This document shows positions 1 to 62,621 of a DNA stretch of 64,000 nucleotides, in pieces (position 1 is the first letter of the stretch; every line of letters begins with the position of its first letter). The stretch spans positions 186,001 through 250,000 of the forward strand of contig CAIIXF020000012.1 of assembly GCA_903813345.2 (NCBI GenBank), in the 5' to 3' direction. The DNA is from Owenia fusiformis (lineage: Eukaryota > Annelida > Polychaeta > Sabellida > Oweniidae). The notes under the pieces are model-generated. The model was not told the origin of the DNA. It saw only the letters and a list, made by a program, of their open reading frames with translations, and made no database searches. The translations under genes were made by a program, and so were the position numbers.

Positions 1-3000
1 GATTACTAACTTTGCGAGATCTCCTACATTTGTCCACAATCCCTGCGCTGCGGATTCTGGGTATGTGTTCCAGTTACCTTGGTTCAGTAATTTTTATGTA
101 AATATTTTCATTTGTTCCCTTTTTCATTGAAAGTTTCAACTACCTTGGTTCTGTAATTTGTCAAGTAAACTTTAAATTTTGTGTCCAACATAAGAGGCAG
201 TGTTGCCAAATAGTTTGGTTCGGTTTGAATATAATTGGTAAACTGTACCATTATAATCAATGATTTAATGTATTACAAGTATGTCTTTTGTAGTAAATAT
301 AATGTGTACCTGGAATGACACTTTCTTCTGAGCTGTTGCAATGATAGCCAAATGCTACACCATTGATGTCATTGTAGTCTCTAATGGCAAAGCTACTAGA
401 TGACATACCAGCCTTGTCAAGTACCTAAACCACAATGCATAAGTTATAATTCACAATTGATGTCATTGTAGTCTCTAATGGCAAAGCTACTAGATGACAT
501 ACCGGCCTTGTCAAGTACCTAAACCACAATGCATACGTTATACTTCACAATTGATGTCATTGTAGTCTCTAATGGCAAAGCTACTAGATGACATACCAGC
601 CTTGTCAAGTACCTAAACAGTAAACATCACAAATGCTTTCGTTTTCGACGAACCTCCGATTTCAGCTAAACTAAGTTAAATCTGGATTCCAAAACTTTCG
701 CCATGCAAACTAATAAAGCTACGATTGGAAACAACCACAGATAAATGCTCTAACAACCGCGATATGGGTGAATTTTAAAGAAAACAGCATCACTTAGAAT
801 TTCTCTAGCTGAAGTTGTCCTCGTCAACTTTAGTAAGCCGTTCTAAGTGAAGCCGTTTTCTTTCAAACTCTCTAATATTGCGGGTGTTTGGGCGGGCATT
901 TATTTGTTTTTTCACAATCTAAGTCTTATTAGTTTCCATGGCGAAACTTTTGGAATCAAGATTCAGCTAAGTTTAGCTTAGCATTTCGACAATCATCTTG
1001 AATGACGATAACTGCAGTTAGAGTCATCCAGCTGTGGAACAGTGATTCAGGCGATGTGGGTCTAAATATATCTGATATCGTTTCATTATGCATAAGATCA
1101 TGATGAAGGATATGAGGGAAATATCTTCCAAATGAGAGTCAGAGATTGAGGATTTTACAAAAATAGCTGTGCATAACGTAAACATACTTACCAATTGTTG
1201 AACAATTGTGCTGAATGATTGTCCCGTGACATCCTCGAGTACCTGCTGGAGGGCTGCGAATCCTCCTGATGAGTAATCCTCCTGTGTACCAGGGGTAAAG
1301 GGGTCATTGAATATAACATCGAGGAGATCCTCTATCAATTCCACTTTAGGGTTATTGGCTGGACCTGACTTAGAGAGCGTCTGTTGTAAGGTTGGAAGAG
1401 TCTGTCCTCGTGTATATCCATCGAATTCGTCAACAGTAACAGCCCCACTGTGACTGAGTAGATGTTTCAGTTTTACTCTATTGTCTCTTCTCTTTTTGTA
1501 TGACATCTATAAAAAGACAAACATATACTATGATTTTAACACATGCACTAATTTAATGTTATATGTAAGCAATTTTGAAAAGTGGGATAAGAATGTGCGT
1601 TACCTTCCAGTTTGAAGTTAAATAATCATTGATATTAGTTTCGAGATTTAGTGTTCCGTTTTCCACATATTTAAGAGCTGTGAGTGCGCTTAGAAAACTG
1701 CTTATGGTACCCGCCTGGTAAATGGTATCAGCCGTAGCTGGTACGCCTAAAATAATGTAAAATTGGATTATCAAAATGTTGATTTGGAACAATATTTTAA
1801 AGTTATATATTAAAATAGCGACAGAAATAATGTTGAATAACCTATCAAGTTTAGAAAACCCAATGATGATTTTTGTGACACTAATTTCTATGCTGACAGC
1901 TAGCAATACCAGTGAGGTCATTTAAAATGAGACAGAATTGCACATTTATACTACTCGTACAATTATACTTTTAAATAGGGTCGGTGACTAATAAATCAGG
2001 ACTCGTAATTCGTTTTACTAAATCCTATCAAGGTCAAACTTCAATTTGTGTACGATCATTCCCCGAAAGGAAAGGTATCGATACGGCGAACTAAATTCAA
2101 CAATGTTTTTCTCTTGAACCAATTATTGAAAACATTCTGTAAAAAACACGGCCCTTTATGTAATGTTGACTGATTGGCGAAAATTTAATGCAAAAATTAT
2201 TTATATATATTCTATATAACTGTTTTTGTAAACATTTTTTGTTTTTAGTGCAATTGCTTTTTGTTCCTTTCTACCAACTCTTGAGAATGAAATAAAATGT
2301 CTTTCCGAACCTTGTTGGAACAAAATAGCATATACAACATTTTCTTAGACCTCTCAATATTATAGTCATACAATGGAAATTTGGGTTGATTTAACAAAAA
2401 GTATACAAAACCCCCCAAAATAGATAAAAATTAAGATAAACCTTTTATTTCATTAACAATGTACTTTTTTTAAATCAACCAAACTTTCCTTTGTACAATT
2501 ACAATATTGAGAGACCTAAACACGTTGTGTTTATGTCGTTTTGTTCCAATGCGGTTCGGATAGATGTTTCATTTCATTCCGAACATATGATACCAAGAAC
2601 AAAAGAAGTGTCTGGTGTGTTTTCTAAAACAATATAGAAAAAGTATCATAATGTTACCATCCAAAAGATGACTATTAAGTTGACGATGTGTAAAATTTTT
2701 AGAATGTTTTGATGACTGGTTTAAGAGAAACGTTAAAAAGGTTCACCATATAGATACCACTACTTTCAGTTATCTTTTTTTAAAAAGCTTGGCCTTTGTA
2801 GGATTTAATATTATTCTATGGGTTTTGCTTTTTCGGGTCACCATGTACCATTTTGAGCTTCTCCATAACCATCCGCCCATTCCACCTGGTAGTTGTTGAT
2901 CACAGCCACAGAGATACCTGGAAGATGACGTAAATTCAAAATATCAGAACCAATATCATTCCTAACTGACAAATGTAAAAGTAATGTAAAACTTAACAAT

Positions 3001-3896
3001 GATTGATTGACGGATTTAAGCACCGGGATGAATGGTTAAATTATCACAAATTGTTTGTTACTTCCTTATAATTTAAATGTGAAGGGAGTATCTATAACTA
3101 GTTTTGTGTGAATTTTTATATCAATCTGCAGCTGAAACCTCATGGTTACCTGGTACAAACCAATGCTGCATACGTTCAGCAAGTGTTTTAGTTTCACCTT
3201 CCCGATCTGTTCCAACGAAATGTTCAAATGGAATGAGCTCATTTTCAACCTTCTCCTTCATAACTTGTCCTTGAATTAAATTTATAGCAAAATGGAAAAA
3301 TATGCCCAATTAGTATGAGGCATAAAAATGGCGTGGTGCATGGTAAAATTCGTATGGCGTATGGTAAAAATTGTAGAAATTTAACCTCATAACGTTTTCA
3401 CTTTCACTTGTTTAATAAACAGTGCCATCTCTGACATTTCAAGATATTTTAAAGATTTATCAAACATGGTAACAATTTTTTACAAATGCTAAAAACGTAG
3501 TGGTACGTGGTAACTATATTTATCGTATTTACGTTGTGCTGCATCTTTAACAAAAATATTTTAAAATATAAACTAAGTGGGATTCAAAACAAATTACAAC
3601 ACAAAGGCATCTAACCCTTTTCAAACTCTGATCAGAAATGTTGTAATAATTCTTATCTTAGATTTCTCTTAGATTTGAAGGATTTCAAAGTTATATATTT
3701 TCTGCCGATCCTCATATCTGTTGTAAAAGGGAAGATCCAATGAGAACCATAATGACTATAGTCATAATATGATGTTCTCTGGGTTATAGTCCTGACACGG
3801 GATATAGTATTACCATAAACATAATGATAAGTCACGAGTGTTCTTACCTGTCACTGAGCCTATCACTAGTACAAGTGCTATTAAGTTCATTATCAT
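1..3896 (-). CDS. Secreted class-C beta-lactamase-like protein (3' end cut by window), probable pseudoenzyme
   Basis: Seven coding exons read on the minus strand: 3848-3896, 3150-3269, 2849-2917, 1604-1746, 1192-1506, 310-424, 1-77 (partial). Every donor is GT, every acceptor AG, and phases agree at all joins. The first ATG (3896) has A at -3 and opens a hydrophobic signal peptide, MIMNLIALVLVIGSVTG. Family landmarks in order: VPGISVAVI at the domain start, the YQAG block that normally carries Ser-x-x-Lys, the LLSHSGAVTV block, the DYSSGGF block equivalent to the Tyr-x-Asn loop, and a YPESAAQGLWT block. Bacterial and animal proteins of this family (beta-lactamase/DD-peptidase/LACTB-like) hydrolyse amide or ester bonds with the Ser and Lys of SxxK. 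Here that site reads T-I-S-S, so both residues appear replaced, while the Tyr is kept. The C-terminal part lies outside the window. Family assignment is confident; loss of catalysis is inference. Confidence 0.88.
362..616 (-). repeat. Tandem triplication of an acceptor junction (lactamase-like gene exon 6)
   Basis: A unit of about 93 bp occurs three times. Each copy holds the splice acceptor and about 60 nt of the 5' part of the exon at 310-424, followed by intron sequence. Only the copy nearest position 310 continues into the full exon and its donor. The extra copies lie in the upstream intron. Confidence 0.85.
617..1191. other. Intron without recognised content
   Basis: This is the intron between exons 5 and 6 of the lactamase-like gene. 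It holds an imperfect inverted repeat: a segment near 650-730 recurs inverted near 895-985. I see no coding signal. Confidence 0.5.
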
Positions 3897-5713: not shown

Positions 5714-6120
5714 ATATTTTGAGGAATATCATTTTTATCTACGAGGTGATATTGATATCTGCACGAGAGAGCAAAGCGAATGAGTGCATATATCAATATC
5801 ACCGAGTAGATTAAAATGATATTCTGAAAAAAATCATAGGATGTTCTTATTATCCTACACTTACAAGGAGTGTACTAAATGTATAATATCATTGCAAAAT
5901 GAATTTCATGCCAAATAGAGTCAATTTGGCGGGAAATTAACAAGCGGAGTATATCGTCACAATATCCTCTGCATATTTGGTTTTCCGGAGTGTATCGTCA
6001 CGATATCCTCCGTCCGGAGTATATCATCACGATATCCTCCAGTTATTCATTTTGCCAATAAATATCAAATTTATTTTTTTAATGTTATTATACATTTAGT
6101 ACACTAAGTGTAGGATAATA
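5714..6120 (+). mobile_element. MITE-like element, family A, copy 1
   Basis: It has two nested inverted-repeat modules. The first is a hairpin (5714-5845) with gaggtgatattgatat against atatcaatatcaccgag. The second is bounded by inverted copies of a tcctacactta...gtgtactaaatgt end. Between them are several short palindromes of the type cggagtatatcgtcacgatatcctccg. Near-identical copies lie at 24171-24586 and, inverted and interrupted, at 63341-63859. Confidence 0.75.
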
Positions 6121-9972: not shown

Positions 9973-9978
9973 GCTATA

Positions 9979-11111: not shown

Positions 11112-11126
11112 AACTCCACAGCTATA

Positions 11127-13198: not shown

Positions 13199-16100
13199 TT
13201 AAGATATTACACACGCCCTGCTGTTGGCTCTATCACCCTTCTGCAATGGTTTAGCAGTATCATTGGGTTTCTTAGCTGGTTTCTTGTTATCCTGTGGAGG
13301 AAGAGTCTTGTCTGATTGTCCAATGTCCTTTGGCTGACTCTGTTTGGCACTAGTCACTTGTTGAGGAGGGATTTGTTTAGCTGGTTGAGGAGGGATTTGT
13401 TTAGATGGTTGAGAAGGGACTTGTTCAGCTGGTTTAGGACGAACTGGTTCAGCTTGTTGTTTTGCAGTAGGTATGTCTTGCTTTGACAAATCTGTCTTGG
13501 ACGAGTCATTGTTGGAGTCTTGTGATGCAGAAACTGCAGGCGATGATGCAGAAATTGCAGGCGATGATGCTGAAACTGCAGGGGATGATGCAGAAACTGC
13601 AGGCGATGATGATGAACCTTTGCCTACATCAGCATCTTCATCTTGTTCTTCATTCTCCTCTACATATGCATTATCACAGCCTAAAAGTAGAGGGTAATGA
13701 AAAATGAATGTGAAATGAATGAGAAATTAATGTGACATTTACAACAAGAAATTAATGTGAGCTGAGTGAAAAATGGATGCTGATTAGTACAGCTAAGAAA
13801 AACATGAGCAGATATAATTATCCAAAACCTCTAATACCATATATTCTTTGTGACTGATCCTGGGTCAGTTTGGTCAGATCAGTGCTAAGAATTAAGAACT
13901 CTGTAGATTTAAGACTTTTATATTACCATAAATTCTTTGTGACTGATCCTGGGCAAGTTTTGCTAATTCAGGGCTGAGATTTAAGAGTATGTAGTCCTCC
14001 TTTCTCTCCACCGTTCCCTGATGACCTGTGGTATCGTGAAGAACAGTAGCTCTGCTTGATGCCTGGTGCTCCTCACAAAGCCATGTTACTTTGCCATTGG
14101 GCAAATGGCACCTGGAATCAACCAATCAGATGACTCAAAGCCATGTTACTTTACCATTGGGTAACTAGCACATGGAATCAACCAATCAAAAGAATCAAAG
14201 CCATGTGACTTTAACATTGGGCAATTAGTACATGGAATTGCCCTCTTACACATGATGCAAGACAAACATTTCTCCTAAGTCTCTCCCAGCAAGCTGACCC
14301 TGACCTCAAACTTTTCTCCAGTAAACGTAAATATGACAAGGTTGATATGATTTTATTTGGTGATAAAGAACTATCACCAAAGCTTAACTCCACACTTATA
14401 AATTTATCATCAGATTTTATTAATAAAATATTGTGAAGTGCCATAGCTACTGTACCTTGCCAAATTTCATATCATCATCACTCATCTTCATCCCATCTGA
14501 ACACTGCATTTATGTAAATTATGACTACTATTGTATGTGTAAATATCCACTGTATAAAATGTATTTCCACAAGCCAATAATGTGCAAACGTAGGCTTGTT
14601 TCTCCATATTCATGTATTATTGTATGTTTATATATGTCTTAAATATGGAAATAAAATAACCTTAAAAAAAATCAACCAATCAAATAAATCAAAGCCATGT
14701 TAATTTTCCAATGGGCAAATGGCACCTGGAATCAACCAATCAAATGAATCAAAGCCATGTTACTTTACCATTGGGTAAATAGCACATGGAATCAACCAAT
14801 CAAATGAATCAAAACCATGTTATTTTACCATTGGGCAAATGGCACCTGGAATCAACCAACAAAATGAATCAAAGCCATATTACTTTACCATTTGACAAAT
14901 AGCACCTAGAATCAACCTATCAAATGATTCAAACCCATGTAACTTTACCATTGGACAAATGGCACCTGGAATCAACCAATCAAATGAATCAAAACCATGT
15001 TACTTTACCATTGGGCAAATGGCACCTGGAATCAACCAACAAAATGAATTAAAGCCATACTACTTTACCATTAGGTAAATGGCACCTAGAATCAACCAAT
15101 CAAATGAATTAAACCTATATGACTTTACCATTTGACAAATAGCACCTTGAATCAACCTATCAAATGAATCAAACCCATGTAACTTTACCATTGGACAAAT
15201 GGCACCTGGAATCAACCAATCAAATGAATCAAAGCCATGTTACTTTACCATTGGGCAAATGGCACCTGGAATCAACCAATCAAATGAATCAAAACCATGT
15301 TACTTTACCATTGGGCAAATGGCACATGGAATCAACCAACAAAATGAATCAAAGCCATATTACTTTACCATTAGGTAAATGGCACCTAGAATCAACCAAT
15401 CAAATGAATTAAACCCATATGACTTTACCATTTGACAAATAGCACCTAGAATCAACCTATCAAATGAATCAAACCCATGTAACTTTATTATTGGGCAAAT
15501 GGCACCTGGACTCAACCAATCAAATGAATCAATGCCATGTTACTTTATTATTGGGCAAATGGCAACTGGAATCAACCAATCAAATGTATTAAACCCATAT
15601 GACTTTACCATTTGACAAATAGCACATAGAATCAACCAATCAAATGAATCAAACCCATGTAACTTTACCATTGGACAAATGGCACCTGGAATCATCCAAT
15701 CAAATGAATATTATTTGTCAATGTGGTTTAACATATTTTTAGGGATGGTGTCAAATTATCAAAAGTTGTGGAATAACACAGTTTCATTATGGGGAGGTGG
15801 TACATGATGGTATTGTTTGCGAATAGTGTTGTTATTCAAGTGAAAGACAATGTTTGAGAATTTTGTCTCAGATGAGAGGCTGAGGAAAGGTCAAACCTTA
15901 AAGAAATTAACTTAGGTTTCCCACAACTATTGACAGGGTTCGTACACCTTTTTCAAAATGAATTTCCCTGACAATTCCCTGACATTTCCAGGCAAAAAAG
16001 GAAATTTCCAGATCTAATTTTCCTCGCGCGTCCTCTAAAAAGTCTCAAACAACTGTATTATTCAAGACAAAAAGACTTATTATGAATCATATGGGGTTTC

Positions 16101-19100
16101 TCCTTCAGTACCATCTCATGACTTTACTACTTGTACAGGCAGTCTTATTCACTAATCTATTCCTGATACATTTTATCTTTAATATTACATATTTTACATT
16201 GCATAAGGCCAAAAGGTAAACATACATGTACAGGGGCATAGCCAACAAGTATCAAGGAGGTGCATCTTTTGGGGTTTGCATCACTGCGAGCGAAGGAAAA
16301 CCAGAAGGGGGGTACGGGGGTTCAGCCCCGGAAATTTTTTCAAAATTGACAATTATTATTGTATATGGTGCATTCTAAGCATTTCAAACTATAATTTGTT
16401 AATGTTTTGTAAAAAATAAAAATGACAACTGAAACTTTAAAATTTTGATCTAAATCCTACTAGAAAAATAGCAACTCACTTGAGGGGCAATTCCCACCTA
16501 ATGAAACATATTTCTATTGAATACTATTATTGTGAACATTATATGATAGCAATAACCTGGCATTACTATTGTCTTCTCCCTTTTTAGAAAATTACACCAA
16601 AACAATTGACACCATATTAGAAATTCCTTCTCAAGTAGCATCACCAGATCACGAAAAGGCTCAGGCCTATGATACCAAATCAAATAATCAGTATTTTGTG
16701 TTATCAGGAATCAAATTTCTTTAAATTATCAAAAATTTCATAAAAAATGGTGGCAATTTTGAATTCAGAGACCATCTTGAATATTTCTTCTTGAGCAGGT
16801 CCTTTGTCCCTAACAGTAAGGCTACATCATACAAAATTTGAGCCAAAGTAAAATGCTGGGTTCATCTTTACAAGAAGAAAAATTTGGACCAAATTCAAAA
16901 AAGTTAATAGTACCCCACACACATTTTGGTTGCCTACTTCCATGTGCTAAGGTTTTCAAAATTGGCAAAGTCCCTGAAAGTTGAAAAGACTGACATACGA
17001 TCGGACTGTCGAACAGACAGCTTCTTAATATAAATACAATTTTACATTGTAAAGAGCTCCCAGAATTTTTTTGTTTTTCACCTCCCGCCCCCCCCCCCCT
17101 CAGATTAACCCTCATCAAACCATGAAATATATACCAGTAATTAACTTTGAATGGCTTAAGACTAAGCTTACTACATAAAAAAGCATAATTGTATTAAATC
17201 ATCTATACATTATTTTTATTGTTCGGTTTCAGTGTAATGTTCACACTGTTCTTACAAATAGACAATACCAGATATAATGTCATTCAACCAACCCTAATGA
17301 AAAGATTTGCAATTTGTGGAAACAACTAGATGATTTTGGATTTCACTCATATCCTGTCATAGCCCTAAAATGTATTTTGCTGGAACATTATTCTTTCAAC
17401 ATTGATACAAAATTCCCTGACATTTCCCTGACACATCTACTGTTTCAAAATTCCCTGACATTTTTGGCCCTTTTTGACCCAATTTTAAAATTCCCTGACA
17501 TTTCCAGCACCTGGAAAAATAAATCAATTTCCCTGACATTTCCAGGTGTGTACGAACCCTGAAATTGGACACTTTCCCCTACAGCAGTATTGATAAGACT
17601 GAATATAAGTAGTTTGTCATATAAGACAATGTAAATTGTTATCTAAGTGTTCTGATTGCTTGAAATACATAATGGAAAAATGAGAGTTTGGAAGGTCTTA
17701 CCTCTTCAGTCCAGCCTTGTTCCTTTCTGGGCCAGGGTCAGCTTCCAACATAAGTGTCCTCAGTTCCTGGTAAACCTTATTAAAGTCCCCAGTCTCAATA
17801 ATCTCCTGAACATTCTACAAATAACAAGTAAACCTCATTTAAGTCCCCAGTCTCAATAGTCTCCTGCACATTCTACAAAATAACAAGTAAACCTTATTAT
17901 AGTCCCCAGTCTCAATTGTCTCCTGCGCATTCTACAAATAACAAGTAAACCTTAATAAAGTCCGAGTCTCAATAGTCTCTTGTACATTCTACAAATAACA
18001 AGTAAACCTTATTAAAGTCCCCAGTCTCAATGGTCTCCTGTACATTCTACAAATAACAAGTAAACTTTATTAAAGTCCCCAGTCTCAATGGTCTCCTGTA
18101 CATTCTACAAATCACAAGTAAGTGAAATTTCCATTTGTAAAGAACATCTCTGTTGGTAAAACACTTCCACAACTGGAAAACTTTACAAAGTTCTCTCAAC
18201 CTTTTACATTATGTAAATTAATCCTCATAGGAGGAACAAATCTTGTGGAACATTATTGAAGTGCAAAATGTGTTCCACCTACTTTTACTGCGACATCTCT
18301 TTAAATGAAAAACCTTCCAAATAGAACCAAATGTGTTTCATTTTGCACAGATGCACTTACTTTATATTTAACTTACCTTCTGACACCATCTGGAGAACTC
18401 CTTGCCCTCTGGTCCCAAAGAACAGTTGAGAATGGCATTGTCACTGTGCTTCAGGATTGAGAAAATCTGGACTTGATAAGGGGACAAACTCTTTGACAAC
18501 TTCTCACCAAAACCCGCTGGTGCAGGGAATGGGTCACCACAGAAATGCCAACCCTGAAAGTTTACATATCTATCATTTATCATTTTATATCACTAAAGTC
18601 AGAACATATATGCATTGACATAACATACACATTACATTTGACTTCAACATTATTTTACATATATATTGGTTATATTATTCATTGCTACTACGCAATAATA
18701 ATATATTTATCAATCAACTAGGATACAATGCTAATTATGAGACTTCAAAGCTTAATGATATTGCAACTACTTGGTAATAATCATATATTTATCAATCAAC
18801 TCGGATATAATGCTAATTATGAGACTTCAAAGCTCAATGATATTGTAGCTTCTTGGTAATAATCATATATTTATCAATCAACTCAGATATAATGCTAATT
18901 ATGAGACTTCAAAGCTCAATGATATTGTAGCTTCTTGGTAATAATCATATATTTATCAATCAACTCGGATATAATGCTAATCATGAGACTTCAAAGCTCA
19001 ATGATATTGCAGCTACTTAATAATAATCATATATTCATCAATCAAATCAATGGATACAATGCTAATTATGGGACTTCAAAGCTTAATGATATTGCAGCTA

Positions 19101-20392: not shown

Positions 20393-23300
20393 CTACAATT
20401 ATATCACAATTGAAACCAAGAGCAAGGGCATTAATCAAAACAAAGCATCAATGAAGACCTTTCATCAATCTAACACAATATACTGAGATTCAAACCTGAT
20501 TCTAACCTTTAATTCATCACATGTTTTTCCTGCATCAAGAGATGCTGACAAGTCATACAATAAAAAACAATACTGTCTACAAACCTGGAATGCACCAATT
20601 TTAGTCTTTGGTTTACTTTTATCTGCTTTCTTATTCTGCAAGTCTTCAGCTTCAATGTGCTTTTTGATATGTTTCAACAATTTATCCTTCTCTCCTTCAA
20701 CCTGCTGCTGGAAGTTCACTGTGGGAATCCTATCAGTAATAGCTACAATTCCTGCCTGCAATTATGCAACAGTTTTATCCTAATTAAATGGAAAGTGCAA
20801 AGTTCTGGAATTATGTAACAGTCGCATCCTGTTAAAGACCAACTAGCAAACTCCTGAAATTCATGTACATGATACAATGTCCCCAAAAAATTATATCTTA
20901 AAGAGGCAGACATAATCCTTTTTCCTTCATCAAAGATAGCAGGTAGATCTTCAAAAAGGATAAGGAAGATTCATATTTAATTAGTAGTTTAAAATTTGTA
21001 GCTACCTCATGACCGATGAATGCAATTTCAAACTAAAAAATGGTTGACGGTCCTAAAACAAGCTTTTCTATAAAACTTTAAGTAATGAATAATGTACAGC
21101 AAAACCTAAGTGGAACACCATTGTTACCGGTATTCTATTTATTTATTAATTTAACATTGACTCTCTGATGTGTTCCAATAGCAAAGGTGTTCCACTTTAC
21201 AGGTTTCACTGTAAAGAACATACCCCAGAATATTTCCAATTTTCTCCAGTGCCCACTATAGCCATGACGGATGGTAACTTCAGTTGTTGAACCGCAAAAT
21301 GGAATTCCCTCATACAGTTTTGGGACTTCACATATTGGTCTGACATACAAGCCACAAATATTTTAGCTTTCTTTATTCCATCTGCAATGTCATCCATTAG
21401 GCCATTCTAGAAATAAAGAATTTCAGATTCAGTTGCTTTCATATAGATGGCAATGTCATAGTCCACATGTAAGTTTCATCAATCTTCTGGAGAATCTATT
21501 GAAAAGAGCCAGAGAGTATTTTACGAAATAGGTAATTTTTAATAATGATTTTTTAGATATCTTTTCAGATACTGTACATCATCACTTTGTAGCTTTATCA
21601 CAGTAAAAACCGATTAATCATACAGTATTTGATGTTGTATCATAAGTATTTAAAACATCTCATGGAGAGATGGGCATTAATACTATCATGATATAATTAT
21701 CATTCGGTTATTAAAAGTTTCAGAGGGGACATATTTGACTTTGGCCTAAAATCACTTGAAAATGCTCAAAATGGTGAAATATGTCATTATGAAAGAATTT
21801 TGGTTGAACCCTTTGACCTCCTGGCTATAACCATGACATTATCACTCTCCTAACTGACCTTTCCAACTTGCTCCTTGTCCAACCAACACATGATACCATT
21901 GCTCTCTATGTATTCCTTCAACTCCCTTGGGTCACCATGACCTATGGCTCCCTCAAGTTTCCTGTAGAGAAAGCACACAAAGCAACATTAGATAAACACA
22001 TGATACCATTGCTCTCTATGTATTCCTTCAACTCCCTTGGGTCACCATGACCTATGGCTCCCTCAAGTTTCCTGTAGAGAAAGCACACAAAGCAACATTA
22101 GATAAACACATGATACCATTGCTCTCTATGTATTCCTTCAACTCCCTTGGGTCACCATGACCTATGGCTCCCTCAAGTTTCCTGTAGAGAAAGCACACAA
22201 AGCAACATTAGATAAACACATGATACCATTGCTCTCTATGTATTCCTTCAACTCCCTTGGGTCACCATGACCTATGGCTCCCTCAAGTTTCCTGTAGAGA
22301 AAGCACACAAAGCAACATTAGATAAACACATGATACCATTGTGTTCAAATCAGAGAGATGTTTGGATATACAGATTTTACCGTGCTGGCCAAAATGACTG
22401 AACATTGGGAATTCTATAAATCATATATACATGTATCTTACCTGCTTCCTTCTTTGATAGCTCTATTAGAGTTAGACCAGCAATAAATATAAATCATATA
22501 TACATGTATCTTACCTGCTTCCTTCTTTGATAGCTCTATTAGAGTTAGACCAGCAATAAAATATAAATCATATATACATGTATCTTACCTGCTTCCTTCT
22601 TTGATAGCTCTATCAGAGTTAGACCAGCAATAAATATAAATCATATATACATGTATCTTACCTGCTTCCTTCTTTGATAGCTCTATCAGAGTTTGACCAG
22701 CAATAACTGATGAAGACAGGAGTATTTGACTTATCTTGCTTCTCAATGTCAGTTCTGGCATTAATTGCTTCAATAAGTTCTTGTCTCTTTGACTCGTATT
22801 CATTTGGTTTCATGTTGACATACACCTGAACATAATAAAGCTTTTATTAAAAATACCATCTTACAGTGATTACAGTGCATCAATCAAATAAGTGAAATCC
22901 GGGTCCTTTATTATGAGACATTGTCAAGATTACATGCTCTACATAATAGAAACCATAAGAATATATGCATCAAATAAGTCAATCTCTGTCAATATTTGCA
23001 TTTTTTGAGAACAGGGGTTGAGTGGAGGTGTCAGAAACTCAAAATTAAGGCACAGAGCATGATCATCTTTTAATTATTCCTGCTGGGTATATTTCCCAGT
23101 AAGCAGGATGAGGAACCAATCAGAATATGGGGATTTAAGCATAATACAATACCTCATCTGATAGCAGGAAACCAATGTTGGAAGTCTTCCACGTCATCTG
23201 ACTGTCCAACAATGCTACAACCTTTTTCTTTTTCAAGGTTGATATAGCGTACTTGAACTGTTTGATGCAGTTGTCATCATTGATGTAGTTGTCCGACATA

Positions 23301-41300: not shown

Positions 41301-44300
41301 ATCATGCTAGATGGTTTGCCTACATCCTTGAAAGGTAAGTCAGGTTACATATGATTTAGCATACGCTACATATCATGCTAGATGGCCTGCCTACTATCCT
41401 TGAAAGGTAAGTCAGGTAACATATGATTTAGCATATGCTACAAATCATGCTAGATGGCCTGCCTACCATCCTTGAAAGGTGAGTCAGGTTACATATGATT
41501 TAGCATATGCTACATATCATGCTAGATGGTTTGCCTACATCCTTGAAAGGTAAGTCAGGTTACATATGATTTAGCATATGCTACATATCATGCTAGATGG
41601 TTTGCCTACATCCTTGAAAGGTAAGTCAGGTTACATATGATTTAGCATACCTACATATCATGCTAGATGGTTTGCCTACATCCTTGAAAGGTAAGTCAGG
41701 TTACATATGATTTAGCATATGCTACATATCATGCTAGATGGTTTGCCTACATCCTTGAAAGGTAAGTCAGGTTACATATGATTTAGCATATGCTACATAT
41801 CATGCTAGATGGTTTGCCTACCATCCTTGAAAGGTAAGTCAGGTTACATATGATTTAGCATATGCTACATATCATGCTAGATGGTTTGCCTACATCCTTG
41901 AAAGGTAAGTCAGGTTACATATGATTTAGCATATGCTACATATCATGCTAGATGGCCTGCCTACCATCCTTGAAAGGTGAGTCAGGTTACATATGATTTA
42001 GCATATGCTACATATCGTGCTAGATGGCCTGCCTACCATCCTTGAAAGGTGAGTCAGGTAACATATGATTTAGCATACGCTACATATCATGCTAGATGGT
42101 TTGCCTACCATCCTTGAAAGGTGAGTCAGGTTACATATGATTTAGCATATGCTACATATCATGCTAGATGGCCTGCCTACCATCCTTGAAAGGTGAGTCA
42201 GGTTACATATGATTTAGCATACCTACATATCATGCTAGATGGTTTGCCTACATCCTTGAAAGGTAAGTCAGGTTACATATGATTTAGCATATGCTACATA
42301 TCATGCTAGATGGCCTGCCTACCATCCTTGAAAGGTGAGTCAGGTTACATATGATTTAGCATACCCTACATATCATGCTAGATGGCCTGCCTACCATCCT
42401 TGAAAGGTAAGTCAGGTTATATATGATTTAGCATATGCTACATATCATGCTAGATGGCCTGCCTACCATCCTTGAAAGGTAAGTCAGGTTACATATGATT
42501 TAGCATACGCTACATATCATGCTAGATGGCCTGCCTACCATCCTTGAAAGGTAAGTCAGGTTACATATGATTTAGCATATGCTACATATCATGCTAGATG
42601 GCCTGCCTACCATCCTTGAAAGGTAAGTCAGGTTATATATGATTTAGCATATGCTACATATCATGCTAGATGGCCTGCCTACCATCCTTGAAAGGTAAGT
42701 CAGGTTACATATGATTTAGCATATGCTACATATCATGCTAGATGGCCTGCCTACCATCCTTGAAAGGTGAGTCAGGTTACATATGATTTAGCATACGCTA
42801 CATATCATGCTAGATGGCCTGCCTACCATCCTTGAAAGGTGAGTCATGTTACATATGATTTAGCATATGCTACATATCATGCTAGATGGTTTGCCTACAT
42901 CCTTGAAAGGTAAGTCAGGTTACATATGATTTAGCATATGCTACATATCATGCTAGATGGTTTGCCTACATCCTTGAAAGGTGAGTCAGGTTACATATGA
43001 TTTAGCATACCCTACATATCATGCTAGATGGCCTGCCTACCATCCTTGAAAGGTGAGTCAGGTTACATATGATTTAGCATATGCTACATATCATGCTAGA
43101 TGGTTTGCCTACATCCTTGAAAGGTAAGTCAGGTTACATATGATTTAGCATATGCTACATATCATGCTAGATGGTTTGCCTACATCCTTGAAAGGTAAGT
43201 CAGGCTACATATGATTTAGCATACGCTACGTATCATGCTAGATGGTTAGAACTTTGTAGAACTTTGTTATAACTTTTTCAGACTTGCTTACAGTTTCAGA
43301 GAATGTTTTTAAATAAGTTAAGAAGTTTAATTTGTAATTTTTGAGGCTCTATGTACATGTAGGTACATGCATGTACATTGACCCAAGGGCCTCATCAACA
43401 GCTATCGACATTAAAAATAAATTTCTGCTTTGTTGGCCCATTATTTATTGACTGTTCTCCTACACACTCGTCTCTACCTTGTAGAGAATGATAGTGTAGC
43501 TAAATATGTGTGTTAGTACACATACCTCAGGAGTTGGAAACAGACATTGTGTACAAGCTTTCATAAATTGATATGACATATTATTGCATATTTACTTCCA
43601 GCTCTGCAGCCCTGCAGTACCTGGCAGAGTTAGATGGCGTTCCCGAGCACTGGTACCCAAAAAGTGCTAAAGGGAGAATGCTTGTGAACCAATATATCAG
43701 CTGGCATGGCCCTAATATGAGGAAAAATGCATCTGGATATCTAGAGGCTTATGTAAGTAACTGATATAAGGAAAATGCATCTGGATATCTAGAGGCTTAT
43801 GTAACCCTACTATCACACCAAACTAGTTCTCACTACATTCTCGAAAAAGGGCTTCAACTGTGAACGAACGGACTGGACTTACTTAGAACCATTTGGGGTC
43901 TATTTACAAACTTGGTCGACACGTTCTACAATTAGAACGAGTGACAACCTACTAACGACGAGCTGGACGTACTACGAACGGAACCGTCGTACTACAATCC
44001 TACTAGGGACATTTTTACAATGAGTTGAACTGTCTGAGGACGCATTGAGAACGAGGTAAAACTAATTGCAAATGGGTTAAAACTGATTGAGAACGTATTT
44101 ATCAACGAGTTAGCAAAAATATAGCTATCACACCAAGCAAGTTGCGGTTGCATCTTCAAAACTGGTTTTAAACTGTGTGCGAACGGAATGAACGTAGCTA
44201 CAACGTTCTACTGTCTGTTTACGAACTTCATGGACTTTCCCGGACAAGGAATGTGATTTAGAATTTTGAATCGATTCAAAATTCTATGGCGACCATACCG

Positions 44301-47300
44301 TTCTGTAATCAGGTCTGATGACCTTCTAGACTAAGGGACGCGTTCTACTACGTTGCACACCGACGTGGTGCGACCTGAACGAACTGCGAATGAGATGGAG
44401 GTATTGAAGACTGTTTATGAACGAAGTAGCTAATTATTTTAGACATATTTCCCAACCACAGCCAGATTGAGCCCGTTTTACGACGTTTTCGTAGGACTGG
44501 CAAGAACGGGTAAGAACTAGTTTGGTGTGATAGGGGGGTAAGTAACTGATATGAGGAAAATGCATCTGGATATCTAGAGGCTTATGTAAGTGCCTGGTTT
44601 GAACAATCAAACTCTGTTATAATCTTTCCATTTACAAAAAATGTTTTTCCTAAGTAGTGAATCATTACTATGCCAGTTTGGAATGAAATGAAAAAATTGA
44701 AAAATACAATATAAAGAGACATTTAAAATATTGATATTTAAACAATTTGCAATAATGTTTATTTTTAATATGGTGATATTAATGTTGGTGTTTTCCAGTT
44801 TATGGAACCATTTTTCATGAAGAAAACCTGCCCTGAAGATGAACTTGAAGAAATCAAGGAAGGCTTTGAGAAAATGATGGACAGGCTGGAAAACTATTGG
44901 CTGAAAGATTCTGAATATTTGGCTGGTGATGAGATTTCCATTGCTGATCTGCAATGTATATCAGAACTGGTCAATGTGGAGCCCACTGATATAGATATGG
45001 GCAAGGAAAGGAGGCCTAAGATGGCAGCATATATACAACGTGTCAAGGATAAACTGAGCCCTGTTTATGATACTGTGTTTAAAGATCCCATGGAACAGTT
45101 TGGAATGGGTTTCAAGATGTTTCAAAGATCCAAACAGCTGCAAAATGTTACAAAACTATAACAATTCTTACTGACAACCATAAATTTTGTCAATTTGAAG
45201 CAAGCTGAAAAAACATTTATACCTTTTTTAACAATCAATTCAACATGTTTTTCAACATAGTAACAGACATTGGCAGAAATGTGTTGGGACTCATAAACGG
45301 TTTATACAATTACATGTTGATGGTAATAAATCAAAGTCAGACTGAACAGAAATTGAACAAAAAAAGTTGGAGACAGTATTACAAAAAATATCACCACTCC
45401 TGGTGGTGCCATAAAAATTAATATGTAAAGCTTGAAAAAGACTTACCATTTGTAGCCACAGATACGTTCCAGGTCTTCCTTTATCTTAGTTGGTGTGATC
45501 TTCCCTTGCATGTCTTTGCCACAACAGGATATAAATACATCTGAAACAAGAATGCACATATGGCAACATTAGGAAAACACATAACATACCTGATCCCTAC
45601 ATTAAAGTAAAATATCAGTTTCCCTTTGTTAATAATTTTGAATATAAAGAAATGGGAGAGCACTCTATACTGAAATAGAAGATGGCAGAGAGAAATTCCC
45701 ATTTTACTTAAGGCTTAGGATTAGGATCAAAATATCCCCTGCTATCTTCCATTGTGGTACAGAAAATCATTAGCCATCAAGAAATACCTGCATCTAAATC
45801 TTTTTTCATATCTTTCAATGTATTGTCTGTAATGGCAAGCTGCATGTCATAGTCGTTCCCAGAATCAGGAGGCATTGTGGCTGAAAATGATGAGTAAAAC
45901 AATGAAATATTTGAGAATGCATTTGTTTTGTATACTTGATGAGTGATATAGATGACTAAATAACATGTAAATTAACTAGTAATGACACTGTATGATGTTG
46001 CACATGTACACTGGAGAAATGTGTAGACAGAATAGAAGGGGATATCACAGTAACAAAGTAAGATTAAGAAAGGGAGGGGTGTAAAGTGAAACATATACAT
46101 ACCATGTAAATCAATGAGTGACACTGTATGGAATGATGTCGTACATTGGAGAAATGGAGCTTGAAGCTCTGATGCACGGCGCACTGTTGACCTCGCCATA
46201 AGAAAGGGATCCTTAGAATTCTGAATCCAAAACAATTTTAATGGTGAGGCAAATTTAATTCAGTGAGGCAATTCTAGTGACATAAAAGTATTATGATACT
46301 TAATTTTCGCAGTAACAGTAAAAACTATATTAACCTGCATATTCTAACACCTTTTTGATGTAAACTTTTTTATGTCCCACTTTTAATCATTAAACTTTTA
46401 AATGAGACATTAAAACAACTTGAAATATGCCTATCTGATCATTTTTTGCATTTAGAGTGGCAATTGTATTACATAGGTTTTACTGTACTATTTTGTATAC
46501 TCACATTTTTGAGACAGTCGGGGCAAGGCATAAGGTAGTCGTACGTGACTCCATGGAATGATTCATGTATAAGGCCCTCAAATACCTCATGTACCATAAA
46601 CAATATATTCTCAGGCTGGCTCCCTTGTACTTTCACAATCAGTTGGTTGTCCCTTTAACATACAAAATTTCATATCAAACAAACAAATTATTTTGCCTTT
46701 TTATTTTAGAAAAATGAGAAGATAATCAATGTCACAATTGCAAAATGAGGCTATGAAGATGGTACTCAATGATGGCAGAGCCATTGCCAGTGGGGTGGGC
46801 CGTGGGGTCTTGTGAAACCCTCACCTGGCCAAAAATTCTTTCAAAATCATGCAGTTTTCACCATTTTACTCACATTAAGGAATTTTTGGCCGAAATTGTC
46901 AAAATAGATTTTTTCAAAAACTGAAGCCCTCTTTTAAAAAAAGCTGGCTATGGGCCTGGAGAGTATTAATTTTACCTCATATTTACTTACATTGACTGTG
47001 TAATAAGACATTTCTGTCCAGATTTCTTTAACAGAGACCCCTTCTTCCATATAACAGAACTGTCAGAGTACTGATACAATCTCACCTTAAACAAAAACAC
47101 ATTCATTATTTATAAACAGATCCAGATAAAATATTAGACTGCAAGCATTTGATATCTACGAGGCAAAAAATAATATCATGGGAAATGATTTGATATTAGG
47201 TTTATCCCATAATTACAATCATTTTGTTATGTTTTGACTCAATTTCCCATACATTTATTTATTTATTTTTTTATTGGCACAACCTAGTAACATATGATAA

Positions 47301-50300: not shown

Positions 50301-53300
50301 TAAAAGGATAATGATAGAACAATAAAACTAAGTTGGATTGAAAGATATATCTTTATTCTAACTTATTATCAAGTTTAAGGGACAAAACTTCGCATTCCCT
50401 TTAAAGGGTTGCAACAATTTAATAATGATATAATATCCCTTAAAATTATTGATATGCCATAATTATGTCACTTGTAATGTGTCAAGTCACCTGCGTGTAA
50501 TGTAACAAGTCACCTCTATTGCCCCCCTTGCAATGTGTCTACTCACCTGCCCTCTGTTGAACAGCCCAGCAGGCAAGTAGTCAAACTTATAAATCATCTT
50601 GGACTCCTTCTCTCCACCAACTCTATCCACCTCTGACCAAGGAATCTAGAATAGTAATTAGACACAATTATTACAGTTATTGTAGGCTCAGTGATCACTC
50701 AGGCATTAGAGGAACTGGGCACTACATCCTTTTTAAAAATTCAAAAAATGATATGCCACTCTATTGAAAATCTGTTTACACTCTGCCAAAAAATACTGAA
50801 ATATGGATATTTTAGTGACAAAATTAGAATTAAGGATTTTGCATCCTTTCCAGAAAAGTCCATATGGGATCAGTACTATACTATATATAAAACAAAATGA
50901 TCACAGGTTTTCAAAGTGCATTACCTTATACACATTCATACCTTAGGTGGGTTTGTGGGCAACAGACAAGGAACAATGTTCTTCTTGTCTTTGCTAATGG
51001 GGAATGTCAGGTCATATTCCTCTGTTAACCTCAGCAGCCACTCATGAAGCTCATCTGGGTACTTGCCCCAAACATCCTTGATGTCTTTGTGGTAGAAGTT
51101 ACCATCCTGAAAAATATCACATCAAAATTATGACTGGGGCTCTATAACAACTCTGTCTCTAAGGAAAGGATTATATTAAGCCTTAATTAACATAAAAGGT
51201 ATTACCTTTATTGAAGAATCTTTGACAGAGACCACACATGACATGACATCCACAATCCACTGGGGCTCTATAACAACTCTGTCTCTAAGGAAAGGATTGT
51301 CAAAATGTTGCAGTGTTCCAAGGTCATGTAGAAACTGGATCACTTGGTCAATCTACAATAATATTGACAGTATATTCTTGGGTTAACTTGGTTTGGAAAA
51401 ATATCAGTCATTTCAAATCATAAAAACCAGGTTCAAATTGATATGATGGTACAATAAGATTATATATGGTGTGATCATAGGCAGAAGGCAAGTAATGTTT
51501 AATGACATTTTTTCAGACTGAGAACCTGTTAAAATTACTCGTAATGTCTACACATCTAGGTTGTGCCTTGTTTATATAAACTTGCCCGATTATGCCCCTG
51601 ATACACAAGTCTTCCTATTGGCCAATATAAAACACGAGTCTTTCTATTGGCCATGATTAAACACAAGTCTTCCTATTGGCCAATATAAAACACGAGTCTT
51701 TCTATTCCTACCTCAGACTTATCAAACAAACCATGTTCATTGGCCAGTTCTTCAATTGTTTCCAAGGGAACAACACTAGCCTTGTTACGCATCCTGAAAA
51801 ACAATAATGTAAAAACCATCCCATCAACTTAAAAAAGTATTTAAATAACTGATGAATTTTTTACATTTTACATTATAATCAAAAAGACATATGAAACTCT
51901 TGACCTGAATTGGACATTATCTCTTACTTGATGACAGAATTTTCAAAGTTGATCCAGACAGAGGGTATTTTCTCCCCCATGTAATCCTGGCCTAGGGCGA
52001 CATCTATCAGCCTGTCCTGGAGTTTCTCTACCCCAGTGCCCAAATGTGTGCTGATGAAATGGAAGCCCTGAATCTGAGGGTACCTTCTCATCATATCTTC
52101 CTTTGGCAGGGACCATTTGGCCACCTACATTTAAATTGGTATTGAAAGGTTAAAAAGAAGTCAATGTACACATAATTTATACATTACATAAACAACAGAG
52201 CGTCAATAGTCTGAAGTGTAATAAATCAAGTATAGCTATCCTCTCCTTCAAAGACAATAATTTATTTTTAGTTCAGGAATACAGGACAAAATGTTGATAC
52301 CACAGAAATTACATACTGGTATTCAAAAGAGTCAGAAAGTTCAGAGATTTGACAATAATACAGGTTTTACTATACTGTATGCAGAACACCTCCAATGGTG
52401 TTCCATATACATAGGTTTTACTGTACTTTGGAAACTAACCTGATCAGAATGTGTACCAACAATGAAGATTGGAGCTTTAGGGGCATGTACTGCAATAGAA
52501 CTGAGCCAGAACTCTAAACCTGCATGTTCATATCCGAGTCTGATGTTCCACAGTAACATATACACAGCTCTGTTGGACAGGAAGTACTGAAAATTGTTAT
52601 ATTTCGTTTAGTAGGAGAGACAACTTACTTACTTTCTATTGCTAATATTATTATTTCCTAATTATATGCATATACATTTTTTATACCTTCTTGTACCTGA
52701 CCCTAAGGGGTGTGAAAGTACTTAATAAGTATTCTGTTATTCTGTATAAAATCTAAAGGTGAAATAAGATTCATGTGTCAAAATTGGTGTGACATTCCTG
52801 GAAATGAGAATAACATGTCAAAATTGATGTGACATTCCTGGGAATGAGACTAACTTGTTAAATTGGTGTGACATTCCTGAGAATGAGAGTAATATGCAAA
52901 ATTGGTGTGACATTCCTTGAAATGAGATTAATGTGTCAAAATTGGTGTGAAATTCCTGCGAATGCTATTAATGTGTCAAAATTGGTGTGACATTTCTGGG
53001 AATGAGGGTTATGTGACATTTTCTCAATTCAAATTAGTGTGACATTCCTGGGAATGAGAGTTATGTGTCAAAATTGGTGTGACATTTCTGGGAATGAGAG
53101 TTATGTGACATTATCTCAATTTAAATTGGTGTGACATTCCCGGGAATGAGAGTTATGTGACATTCTCTAAATTTAAATTGGTGTGACATTTCTGGGAATG
53201 AGAGTAATGTGACGTTAGACTGGTGTAATATTCTCTGTTGTTGACAATGGAGCCAAGTTTCTATTCTATGTGATGAGTTTTGTATGAATGTATGAATGCA

Positions 53301-56300: not shown

Positions 56301-59300
56301 GAAAAATGTTTCACAATATGTTCACAATATATGTACATATAACACGATGACACGCAGTTTAAATAACAATTAACTGTTTTTTTTGTTACACATCAATGTA
56401 ACATTTTCGAAGGGAAACTTACATGCTCCCTGTACGTTGATAGATTTACTGAAATGTATCGTGTATTGCATTCGAGTTTTGCTTCACTGCGCCCACTATT
56501 ATCTATCTTTGCCTATAGTGGTTTTTTGCCAACAATATTCTACAAACTGATTGATGAATCAATACTTTGTCTGGTAGAACACTAGAAATAAATGTAAAAT
56601 GTATTTTACATTCAGAAATATGAAATTAAACCCACGTCCTCCATTTGCAACTTAGCTGTACCCTGTTTCCCTTTTAAACCTGGTCACGTGGTAGGGTAGT
56701 GTGAGATAGAAATAAGGAACACTTATTAGTCTGAAAATGAATTCCTTTTAAATTTTTATTTGGAGAGTGTTTTTTTTATCATGAATAGAAATATAGAATA
56801 TACACCTACATGTAAAATGAGTACTTAAATCAACATAAAGCCTGTCTTACCAAAACACCTCTGGAACTAACCAGATTTCAATTTGCAGGTGTCTAAATTT
56901 CAAGCCTCCTCATGTAACTTAGCCTTACCTTGTTTTTCCTGCACCTCCCAAGCCAACCATCATTAGTTTGGTCCTGCAACATGTGATGCCTCCTGTCTGT
57001 AGCCTCCTCATGTAACTAAGCATTGCCTCATGTCCCTTAGCAACTATCTCTAAGGGAGGGCTCCTTAGCGATGGACATTCCTCAATACCAATGTCTACAA
57101 CAATTATTAGAATTCATATCTTAGGGCGTTTAAGTTTAAATTCTAGTGAATAAGCTTAACAAGAAGGAATCTCTATCTTTGTTGCATTAAGGGTAACTTA
57201 AGGTTATTTTGAACAGCATATTCCACTGAAGTTGCATGTAATTGTATATTTCATCTATGACATCTGATTGACCCACAATGGAAATAATATACTGAAGTTA
57301 AAACTGTTGTACTTACGAAATGACCACATTATAAATTACCCAGCATGCCCAGAACCTTACCAGATCCTGGTACAAGTCTGTTTCTAAATCCTTACAAACA
57401 GTTTTATTGTTATATTTGGGACAAGAATTCCAACCTGCACTCATCAGGCCAACTACCACAAAATCATTTCAAACAAGTTAACTTACAATCTAATAGAGGC
57501 AGATTTGCTAGTCCTTTTTCTGGGCTGGTGATGTCACCCAAGAATGGGCAGTCACTCAATTCAATCTCCTGTAGCTCATGAAGTGCAGCAATGCCATCCG
57601 GGACAAATGAAATGCTTTGTGATTTCATAGATAATGAAATAAGATTTTGAAGTTGGAATACTTCAGGTGGAAATCCTCCATATGGTTTCAGTTCTAAAAT
57701 AAAATACTCAGATGACTTTGATATTTCATTTGGTACATGAGTTCATTCCCATACAGTAATTCATTTTATTATATCACTATATAGCTAGCGACAGTATGAT
57801 TGGTCAAAACCGGGTCACATGTCGTGGGATATCTGGCGATATTCAATGGCAATGCTAATCAGATAAGACAACCGTGAGATATCTAGCGATATCCCACGCT
57901 CCCGGGAATTTTCAAAGAATTTGTTTTCGTTCAGTGTAAATAATTGAGTTTAGTGTAAGTCAAAATGGCAGACGAACCGAGTAGATTCGTAAAAATATCT
58001 GAAGACTTAATGACTTAATAATATTACTTTTTAGGAATGTTTAGCTAGACAGTGATATAATAAAACAAATATTTCACTCTATTTTCGGTAAATACCTGTA
58101 GCACTTTCACAAGGTGATATTCCACTTGCCCTTCGGGCTTCGTGGAATATCACTTGTTAAAGATGTACAGGTATTCACCTCAACAGAGTGAAATATTTGT
58201 TCTATATCCTATGCTTTTTCTATCTTGTATCATATTCTATGCAATTCAGTATAAGACAAATACAATGCCTTTTAGTACTGGATAATGCCTTGTGTACAAC
58301 TCCAATGCCCTTTAGCATAAGACAATTACAATGCCTTTCAGTCCAGAAATATTCAAAGTATTCTAACTGACCTTTTGTCTGGAATGAGAATCTTGGGAAG
58401 AGAGTGTACCAGGCTGCATCAAACTTGCCCAATTGAGCCTCATTCAGCACAATGTCTTTCTCATCAAAGTTGGATGGAAACAGTTCATCCATCAATTTGT
58501 CAAAATTCTACAATACAACACATTTGTACAATAAGTATGCATCTGTACAATAAGTATGCAATATAACACATGTGTACACTTGTACAAGAAGTATGCAATG
58601 TAACACATTTGTACACATGTACAAGAAGTATGCAATGTAACACATTTGTACACATGTACAAGAAGTATGCAATGTAACACATTTGTACAATTGTACAAGA
58701 AGTATGCAATGTAACACATTTGTACACGTGTACAAGAAGTATGCAATGTAGCACATTTGTACACGTGTACAAGAAGTATGCAATGTAACACATGTGTACA
58801 CGTGTACAAGAAGTATGCAATGTAACACATGTGTACACGTGTACAAGAAGTATGCAATGTAACACATTTGTACACGTGTACAAGAAGTATGCAATGTAAC
58901 ACATGTGTACACATGTGTACACATGTACAAGAAGTATGCAATGTAACACATGTGTACACGTGTACAAGAAGTATGCAATGTAACACATTTGTACCCTTGT
59001 ACAAGAAGTATGCAATGTAACACATGTGCACACGTGTACAAGAAGTATGCAATGTAACACATTTGTACACGTGTACAATAAGTATGCAATGTAACACATT
59101 TGTACACGTGTACAAGAAGTATGCAATGTAACACATTTGTATACTTGTACAAGAAGTATGCAATGTAACACATTTGTACACGTGTACAAGAAGTATGCAA
59201 TGTAACACATTTGTACACATGTACAAGAAGTATGCAATGTAACACATTTGTACACGTGTACAATAAGTATGCAATGTAACACATTTGTACACGTGTACAA

Positions 59301-62300
59301 TAAGTGTGCAATGTAACACATGTGTACACGTGTACAAGAAGTATGCAATGTAACACATGTGTACACGTGTACAAGAAGTATGCAATGTAACACATTTGTA
59401 CAATTGTACAATAAGTATCCAATGTAACACGTTTGTACAATTGTACAATAAGTATGCAATATAACACATGTGTACAATATGTATGCAATATAACATATTT
59501 GTGCAATAAGTATGCAATGTAACACATGTGTACAATATGTATGCAATGTAACACATGTGTACAATATGTATGCAATATAACAGATGTGCACAATATGTAT
59601 GCAATATAACATATTTGTACAATAAGTATGAAATATAACACATGTGTACAATATGTATGCAATGTAACAGATGTGTACAATAAGTATGCAATATAACAGA
59701 TGTGCACAATATGTATGCAATATAACATATTTGTACAATAAGTATGAAATATAACACATGTGTACAATATGTATGCAATATAACATATTTGTACAAAAAG
59801 TATGCAATATAACACATATGTACAATACATGTATGTATGCAATATAACAAATGTGTACAATAAGTAACAGTTCTAAAGTGGTGATTGTCATTTGTTTTGA
59901 AAAGTTCATCCAACAATCTGTCAAATATTCTACAATCTAACATATATTAATATGCATATACAATATAAAGGGGTACCTTAGTATCCTTTACATTGTAAAG
60001 TTTTAAAGTCTTAAGAACATCTGATCTTGAGAAGGTGTTTCCATGGCTCTTAGAGAAGTAGGGGATGCCACCAATTTTCAGGGACTTTAGTTTCTTCAGT
60101 TTTGTGACCCCATGGGGTAGTCTGCTCAGGCAGTTGGAATTCAGGTGCAACATCACAAGTTGTTCAAGATTTCCTGGATGAAGGTGGGTTACATTAATGG
60201 AAAATAAGAAAAATGCAAAATGAAATTTAAATCCATTTTCTCACATAGTGTTAATTAAGAGGTGTAAAAAATAATCAATCAAACTATCTTGTTAAGATGA
60301 TGAATAACATGCAGTTCATTATTAATGGCCAATTATTATGTTGTTAGTATTCTGATAAATTCATCTCCCCCATTGAATACTCCATCCCACTGACAAAAGT
60401 TCTTTTTTATTATTTTCAAAATTTGAAGTAATGAATATTTAAATCAGTATTTATTCAGGATAATTATTTAAAGCCTCTTTAAAAATATGTTAAAAAGTAA
60501 TGAATGAAAAGCGATCATTCCTAGTGTAAGACTAAAAATGAACTTATAAAGAGCAAGTCTCTAAATGACAAAATGCAAACATTACCTATTTCATCTGGCA
60601 AACTTTCAATTGCCATATTGCTGGCAATAAGGTGCGTCAATGACGTAATCTTAAAAACAACTCCTGGCAGTACACTGCCAAACCTATTATTAGACACATC
60701 CAATAATTCAATATGCAGACACTGAGCCAGATCTTCGGGCAATGTTTTTAGATTAGAATCATACAGTTTTAGTTCAGTCAGGTTGTGACATTTCCCAAGG
60801 CCTTCAGGAAGGTTCTTCCCATTCAGGGTCACATTCATCAAATCCCGGACATTCTCAAAAAAGCCATCAGGAACATCAGCTTCATCATCATTCAATTGTT
60901 TTGGATCTTTAACTGTTATGTGTGTAAGAACTGCAGCATTCTTCCCAAGACCTGTATCAGAACTACATGCACCCTGAGTATTGACATGGGAGTCACATAA
61001 ATACACATGGTATTCAGGAGCATCATTCTCTTCATCCTTAGCTGCCATAGTGAGGTCATTTGAATAGGACAGGAGAGCAGAGAGGGCTTGGGGAAGTTCA
61101 CGTTTGGTGTCCTTTGCAGAACATAGTATTTCCCTCTTGTTCATCAGCTGTCTCCATAAATACATCTGCATCATCTGCATGGTGAATGAGAGTGCCTGTA
61201 AAGAGAACAATGCAGTGCAGTGAGTCTGCATGGTGAATGAGAGTGCCTGTAAAGAGAACATGCAATTCAATTAATCTGGTGCATTGGGCCCATTACCAGC
61301 AAAGGGGTGTTCACTTTTCAAAACATTCCAAGAGGGTTCACAATTGACAGTTTTTGCCCCAAATCACTTGAAAAAGCCCAAACCCCCAACCCCCTGGCTA
61401 TAGGCCAGTGTATCATAACCTCAAGCAGAGAGAGACTTATCACTATTTAGGAAAAAGTTAAATACTAAAGATGAACGTTGACATTAACAAGTTCTAACAG
61501 GAGTAGTTATCTTTATTACATAATATTGTTTGGGTTTTTCAACTTTCAATTCAAATTATTTAAAATTCACAAGTGAGATGAACGCCATCAGGCAATTTAG
61601 CATTAGATCATTTTATTGTAATTCAAAGTAACAGTGACATCCTTGATAATAATTAGATCACTTCCAAATACCTGAACAAGAGTGACATCCTTAATAATAA
61701 CTAGATCACTTCCAAATACCTGAACAAGAGTGACATTCTTTGCATATTCTGCAGTTACCCCCTTAGCATCTTTGTGGCCAAGTGATTCTTCTTTGTGGCT
61801 GGTTTCCTCTTCACTTGTCACTATACTTGTGAAGAGACTCTCTATATTGGAAAGGTTCAGTCCCCCATCATCCATCAACATTACTAACACAGGCACTAGG
61901 TGACACTCCAACTTCTTCATTGTGGAGTTGGAGATTTCCCAACCTGAATGCATTTCAAATCAATTAATGCTCCATTCATCAAAGAGTTGTTTGCGACACT
62001 CCTAACAGGGAAGGTAAGGATTCCGAAATGCAGTATTATCCTGGGGATTTTAAACATGTATGTCAGCTGGTAGTCAGGATTTTTGATTGTGATTGTTTTA
62101 TCAAGTGTACACTAGAAAGAAGGCGCTACACCTTTGGAACTCATAATTTGCAAATTATTGGTAAATATAGAGTGACATATTCATAAGTTGAGAAGATATG
62201 TAAATACTCTTTTCCAGTTTCCACATGTAGGATTCAGTTTAAGGGGTGAAATTCTGAAACAACACGATCATGCTTACATAAATTAGAGCATTTTAATCTT

Positions 62301-62621: not shown

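Follow-up and report, generated by a model that had tools for sequence, protein, structure and literature searches.

Results

Exon edges copied in tandem within the window

The window, the whole 64-kb stretch of DNA analyzed here from a 498.3-Mb genome (contigs C1-C12 sum to approximately 477.5 Mb), holds at least four coding regions by Pfam rather than the three genes of a preliminary description. Beta-lactamase-like and LRR/COR-A regions lie at its two ends and, like a TIR region, are on the minus strand; a GST gene is on the plus strand. That description had listed 12 sites at which part of an exon, its splice site and some intron appeared to be copied in tandem. We examined all 12 with Tandem Repeats Finder, by aligning the sequence to itself and by direct reading, and tandem copies of an exon edge with adjoining intron are present at 10 of them.

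On the minus strand, the beta-lactamase-like gene has an acceptor-type array at 358-618, made of 2.8 copies of a 94-base unit (67 exonic and 27 intronic bases); the exon concerned starts at 424 and PF00144 falls in the neighboring exon. Two further acceptor-type arrays on this strand have units of 60 bases (36 exonic, 24 intronic; exon start 14111), with 2.7 copies at 14076-14238 and 17.3 at 14670-15709 on either side of approximately 430 bases of other DNA, and of 58 bases (45 exonic, 13 intronic; exon start 17814), with 6.1 copies at 17770-18121. The TIR gene, also read from the minus strand, carries an acceptor-type array at 21885-22341 (4.2 copies of 110 bases, 77 exonic and 33 intronic), whose copies are identical (100% matches) and whose neighboring exons encode the TIR domain by Pfam, and a donor-type array at 22415-22706 (four copies of 73 bases, 45 exonic and 28 intronic). 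An old donor-type duplication on this strand pairs 13832-13897 with 13921-13986 at 82% identity. Near the end of the window, again on the minus strand, the LRR/COR-A gene has an acceptor-type duplication at 61174-61264 (period 51 bases, two copies of approximately 41 bases, 97.6%), and a donor-type array spans 61633-61740 (2.2 copies of 48 bases, 21 exonic and 27 intronic).

The two remaining sites, both on the minus strand, differ from how they had been described. An acceptor is indeed duplicated around 59878-59945, with 58477-58514 and 59899-59936 90% identical, but these copies flank a 1.3-kb intronic minisatellite and do not form a simple array. The sequence at 51132-51172, listed as a donor-type junction copy, is instead a duplicate of exon interior that stops short of the splice site: the 40 bases at 51133-51172 match 51259-51298 at 100% and lie in the adjoining intron, 126 bases from their source.

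Two coding minisatellites in the TIR-gene region, at 13360-13459 and 13523-13611, have units of 24 and 21 bases within one open frame. Being multiples of three, these units are compatible with survival of in-exon duplications when the frame is kept. The sequence at 63404-63480, with a tRNA-like start and a box B motif, appears to be a tRNA-derived short interspersed element.

Split arrays in the GST gene

The largest array lies in the GST gene. Its 72-base donor-type unit (28 exonic and 44 intronic bases, plus strand) is repeated 48 times at 25935-29365, with the first donor after 25962, and a further 31 times at 41015-43247, for a total of 79 copies. The two parts are separated by an inserted element of 11,649 bases (29366-41014) that has inverted ends CAGTACGGC/GCCGTACTG and a TA target duplication and carries tandem repeats of its own at 32575-32726 and 34666-35622. 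The next GST exon has a donor-type array of three copies of approximately 48 bases (43712-43804 and 44538-44591, plus strand), in which an inverted-repeat element at approximately 43804-44538, with GTAA on both sides, sits between copies two and three.

Anatomy of the arrays

We measured 23 arrays, 7 in the window and 16 elsewhere, of which 12 are donor-type and 11 acceptor-type. Across the arrays measured, unit length ranges from 28 to 260 bases. The preliminary description implied that arrays begin exactly at splice sites, and this proved incorrect: the junction sits inside a unit whose exonic part varies from 20 to 97 bases and whose intronic part varies from 3 to 168 bases in these 23 arrays, so the arrays do not start at the splice site itself. 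Identity could be measured in 18 of the 20 arrays tried, two having yielded no further copy, and mean identity of alignable further copies to the exon copy is 81-100%.

These measurements bear on the possibility that the tandem copies are false products of assembly, which we consider extremely improbable. Copies that diverge from the exon copy, by as much as 19%, occur in 17 of the 18 measured arrays, and different elements have inserted into two of the window arrays. The few arrays of identical copies, at 21885-22341 in the window and at 2002-2137 of sampled locus L011, are those for which this explanation has some appeal, their reality being beyond proof from sequence alone.

Some intron arrays whose units contain few or no exonic bases adjoin splice sites. 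They include, in oriented coordinates, L100 9461-9593, L109 503-685 and L011 2002-2137, the last with identical copies and four exon bases in its unit, and an intron-only array lies right next to a junction at L004 6769-6828. A halo of arrays near junctions is possible.

Arrays at exon edges outside the window

To sample the rest of the genome, loci were chosen from exon matches of four protein families. The first two batches, covering CCT chaperonins and myosin heads (PF00118 and PF00063) and protein kinases (PF00069) and selected without regard to repeats, comprise 95 loci, 218,088 bases and 377 script-called junctions; a third batch of DEAD helicases (PF00270), treated with the same script, adds 29 loci, 28,597 bases and 68 junctions. 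The pooled sample thus contains 124 loci, 246,685 bases and 445 called junctions, and its tandem arrays were found with Tandem Repeats Finder. For PF00118 and PF00063 we used 103 of the 152 matches listed, in 19 stretches picked by exon density from coordinates before the sequence was seen. For PF00069, 98 of 144 matches were used, at 76 loci, leaving aside long single-frame matches, unplaced contigs, near-identical clusters and a few second exons; for PF00270, 37 of 52 were used, at 29 loci, leaving aside long frames, unplaced contigs, matches crossing introns and four further matches. Among the myosin matches, at least 12 neighboring ones at G000:C9:37986009-37994334 correspond to the same part of the myosin head model (approximately positions 18-84), an arrangement that suggests that a single myosin gene has clustered alternative exons.

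Junctions were called from protein-family matches and general splice-site weights, a procedure that misses exons outside the family models. The main test was restricted to units of at least 28 bases, with limits of 15, 20 and 40 also run, and an array was counted as a junction array if a called junction was spanned and lay no more than one unit from the proper array end. Under these rules L011 2002-2137 is uncounted and the 17-base unit at L012 5483 falls under the main limit; the array at L121 1-153 in the third batch, which reads as an upstream-exon donor array, was left out of the counts. Placement by chance was modeled in two ways, with each founding unit placed randomly in its own locus or with the entire array moved. 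We prefer the founding-unit null since growth from an exon edge leaves the array on one side of that edge, and this choice affects the result.

In this small sample, in which short flanks at many kinase and helicase loci cut arrays, 13 of the 35 arrays straddle a called junction where 3.37 are expected under the founding-unit null (p = 8e-6); counted by locus, the figures are 10 and 3.22 (p = 3e-4). The same null gives 13 of 29 arrays against 2.77 expected for the first two batches together, a number reached in 0 of 200,000 simulations, with 8 of 21 against 1.94 (p = 2e-4) in the CCT and myosin batch and 5 of 8 against 0.83 (p = 4e-4) in the kinase batch. The helicase batch alone shows no excess (0 of 6 junction arrays against 0.59 expected). 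Under the whole-array null the first two batches give 13 arrays against 9.43 at units of at least 28 bases (p = 0.09, not significant) and 14 against 13.55 at units of at least 15 bases (p = 0.50). The expectation of the preliminary description that junction overlap exceeds chance thus holds for the pooled sample and for two of three batches under the founding-unit null, and fails for the third batch and under the whole-array null. Altogether, exon edges are apparently copied in tandem into introns more often than random placement predicts. Approximately 1 exon end in 35 carries an array (13 of 445 called; 95% interval, 1.6-4.9%).

Base composition was considered as a cause of the excess. With exons called by hand, for which L015 and L016 contributed three further junction arrays recognized by eye and the split array at L007 5867 was merged, 16 of 28 arrays in the first two batches straddle a junction, against 1.43 expected from GC-matched intronic windows, and GC content was rejected. 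CpG depletion, a potential hint of methylation-linked breaks, is nearly equal in exonic (0.42) and non-exonic (0.41) sequence, with values of 0.30-0.75 in four arbitrary stretches.

The simplest alternative to an edge bias is that ordinary minisatellites arise throughout genes, some of them landing on exon ends by accident, and that what remains of the pattern reflects reader attention and array size. Arrays do occur in intronic and arbitrary stretches (three with units of at least 28 bases in four arbitrary 10-kb stretches), and the whole-array null and the third batch agree with such a background. We nonetheless judge it improbable, because the founding-unit null, which matches one-sided array growth, is exceeded so strongly and far fewer arrays are found in GC-matched intronic windows.

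Duplicate splice sites show no sign of selection

The preliminary description raised the possibility of selection for redundant splice sites, and a selective account, in which redundant or decoy sites maintain or spread the copies, could draw on how well these sites are kept. GT is present in 79 of 79 copies of the first GST donor array, and across 21 arrays 119 of 123 further copies retain GT or AG. The constancy of the GST donor is uninformative, as most positions of the 72-base unit are constant too. Random dinucleotides drawn from the 21 arrays survive almost as frequently (110.1 expected, sd 11.8; P = 0.20), and when the GST array is omitted the splice dinucleotide is kept in 73 of 77 copies versus 68.6 for random ones (P = 0.29). 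A slight surplus under a naive per-site expectation (100 of 104 kept versus 91.4) is gone under this control. There is no sign that redundant splice sites are maintained by selection, and we regard this explanation as very unlikely. DNA queries for two of the window genes returned no contig of a second haplotype.

A GST paralog with single-copy junctions

When the last GST exon was used as a DNA query, it retrieved a 93%-identical match on contig C11, in a paralog (L100) that can be aligned to the window gene across all four exon regions at 84-93%. The paralog has the same introns and a single copy at both of the donors amplified in the window gene; its own 30-base array lies immediately upstream of its last acceptor. 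Since the paralog has these introns with single-copy donors, both GST arrays grew in pre-existing introns. As judged from this alignment, they would be younger than the split of the two GST genes, unless L100 lost its arrays.

Of the intron growth or gain that the preliminary description envisaged, growth is therefore what the GST gene supports, with 79 copies and an 11.6-kb insert where the paralog has no array at these donors; gain is unsupported there because the intron is already present without the array in L100. The Rogers model, in which a tandem duplication forms a new intron, does not describe the two GST arrays, given that the paralog has the intron and lacks the array.

Discussion

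Exon edges here appear to be duplicated in tandem more often than chance predicts, at donors and acceptors alike. The reading we favor, though with confidence evenly divided between it and all else, is that the arrays are minisatellites of the type called "mirages", arising from DNA-level tandem duplication over exon edges, biased toward exons, filtered by selection and expanding. A tandem duplication in the DNA would copy a short stretch crossing an exon edge, and the surplus edge would land in the intron and be spliced out along with it. Because the extra edge would leave with the intron, the mRNA would be unchanged, provided that the site adjoining the intact exon is the one used (the first donor or the last acceptor), and such copies would presumably be neutral. 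Copy number could then shift by unequal exchange or slippage, some arrays expanding, and mobile elements could enter them as the intron lengthens. Duplications holding exonic DNA would arise or expand more often than wholly intronic ones; those wholly within coding exons would mostly be purged, while those straddling an edge would persist. Any exon bias is accordingly seen through a filter, with arrays inside coding exons censored by selection.

A possible but unlikely alternative is a mutational process centered on the splice junction itself, in which polymerase pausing or breaks, either of them linked to transcription and splicing, would duplicate DNA around exon ends. Junction-containing units are in excess, donors and acceptors are affected similarly (12 and 11), and some intron-only arrays adjoin junctions (L011 2002-2137, L004 6769-6828 and L100 9461-9593), all of which such a process would produce. 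The unit, however, contains anywhere from 20 to 97 exonic bases and keeps no constant distance to the junction, and an exon-wide bias combined with selection yields the same excess. The splice-site process suggested by the preliminary description consequently has the edge bias in its favor (13 of 35 arrays versus 3.37, with GC content excluded) but is unproven: a splice-site-linked process and exon-favoring duplication with selection against in-exon copies fit the same data, which cannot separate them. In its broadest form, which we consider rather unlikely, transcription- or splicing-linked duplication would act around exon ends genome-wide (approximately 1 in 35) as a main route of intron lengthening and mobile-element collection, and the mirages of lancelets would be one case of a process recurring in distant animal lineages.

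These arrays bear on two unsettled questions, how introns grow longer and whether duplication follows gene structure. If arrays sit on a few per cent of the exon ends of one genome, that genome offers a large number of events, for some of which a paralog has the single-copy state, and breakpoints, dependence on expression and the use of duplicate sites would become measurable instead of being argued from one gene. In genomes of this kind, exon ends call for caution in annotation and in the mapping of reads.

Arrays over splice sites have precedents. The human interferon-induced 6-16 gene contains a minisatellite that gives multiple splice donors; like the donor-type arrays here it repeats a donor site, but it is confined to one human gene. 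Canestro et al. in 2002 reportedly found mirages in amphioxus Adh3. A search of the open-licence literature found no genome-wide count of exon-edge arrays.

The closest counterparts are the mirages of amphioxus, which section 16 of PMC3087553 reports for two globin genes, BflGb6 and BflGb9; there, the boundary between intron and exon, at one end of an exon or the other, is duplicated in the manner of a minisatellite. By that section's account the mRNA is spliced regularly and copy number varies between haplotypes. As there, the unit spans the exon-intron boundary (in 23 arrays here) at both ends of exons (12 donor, 11 acceptor here), and many copies, though not all, keep AG or GT (119 of 123 here). 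Unit sizes from tens to approximately 160 bases and the 81-100% likeness of the BflGb6 copies, as that source gives them, are also similar to those of our arrays (PMC3087553). The mirages, in the same account, concern few lancelet genes and come with RT-PCR and haplotype data, whereas the arrays here involve many genes and a sampled excess read from the genome sequence.

For human genes within segmental duplications, passages of PMC2812944 describe internal tandem repeats located where exon and intron meet. These too are minisatellites over exon-intron boundaries that alter introns; unlike our arrays, as described there, they were chosen from recent human paralogs and are linked to novel introns and alternative transcripts, while existing introns lengthen here. 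Intron gain by tandem duplication, as outlined for the potato RdRp gene (PMC4974935) and Drosophila (PMC2891723), likewise involves tandem duplication of DNA bearing splice signals, but in those outlines a new intron forms within an exon, whereas the GST intron is present without the array in the paralog. The kind of structure reported here is already known from the amphioxus mirages; what is new is its occurrence in a non-lancelet genome and its sampled genome-wide excess.
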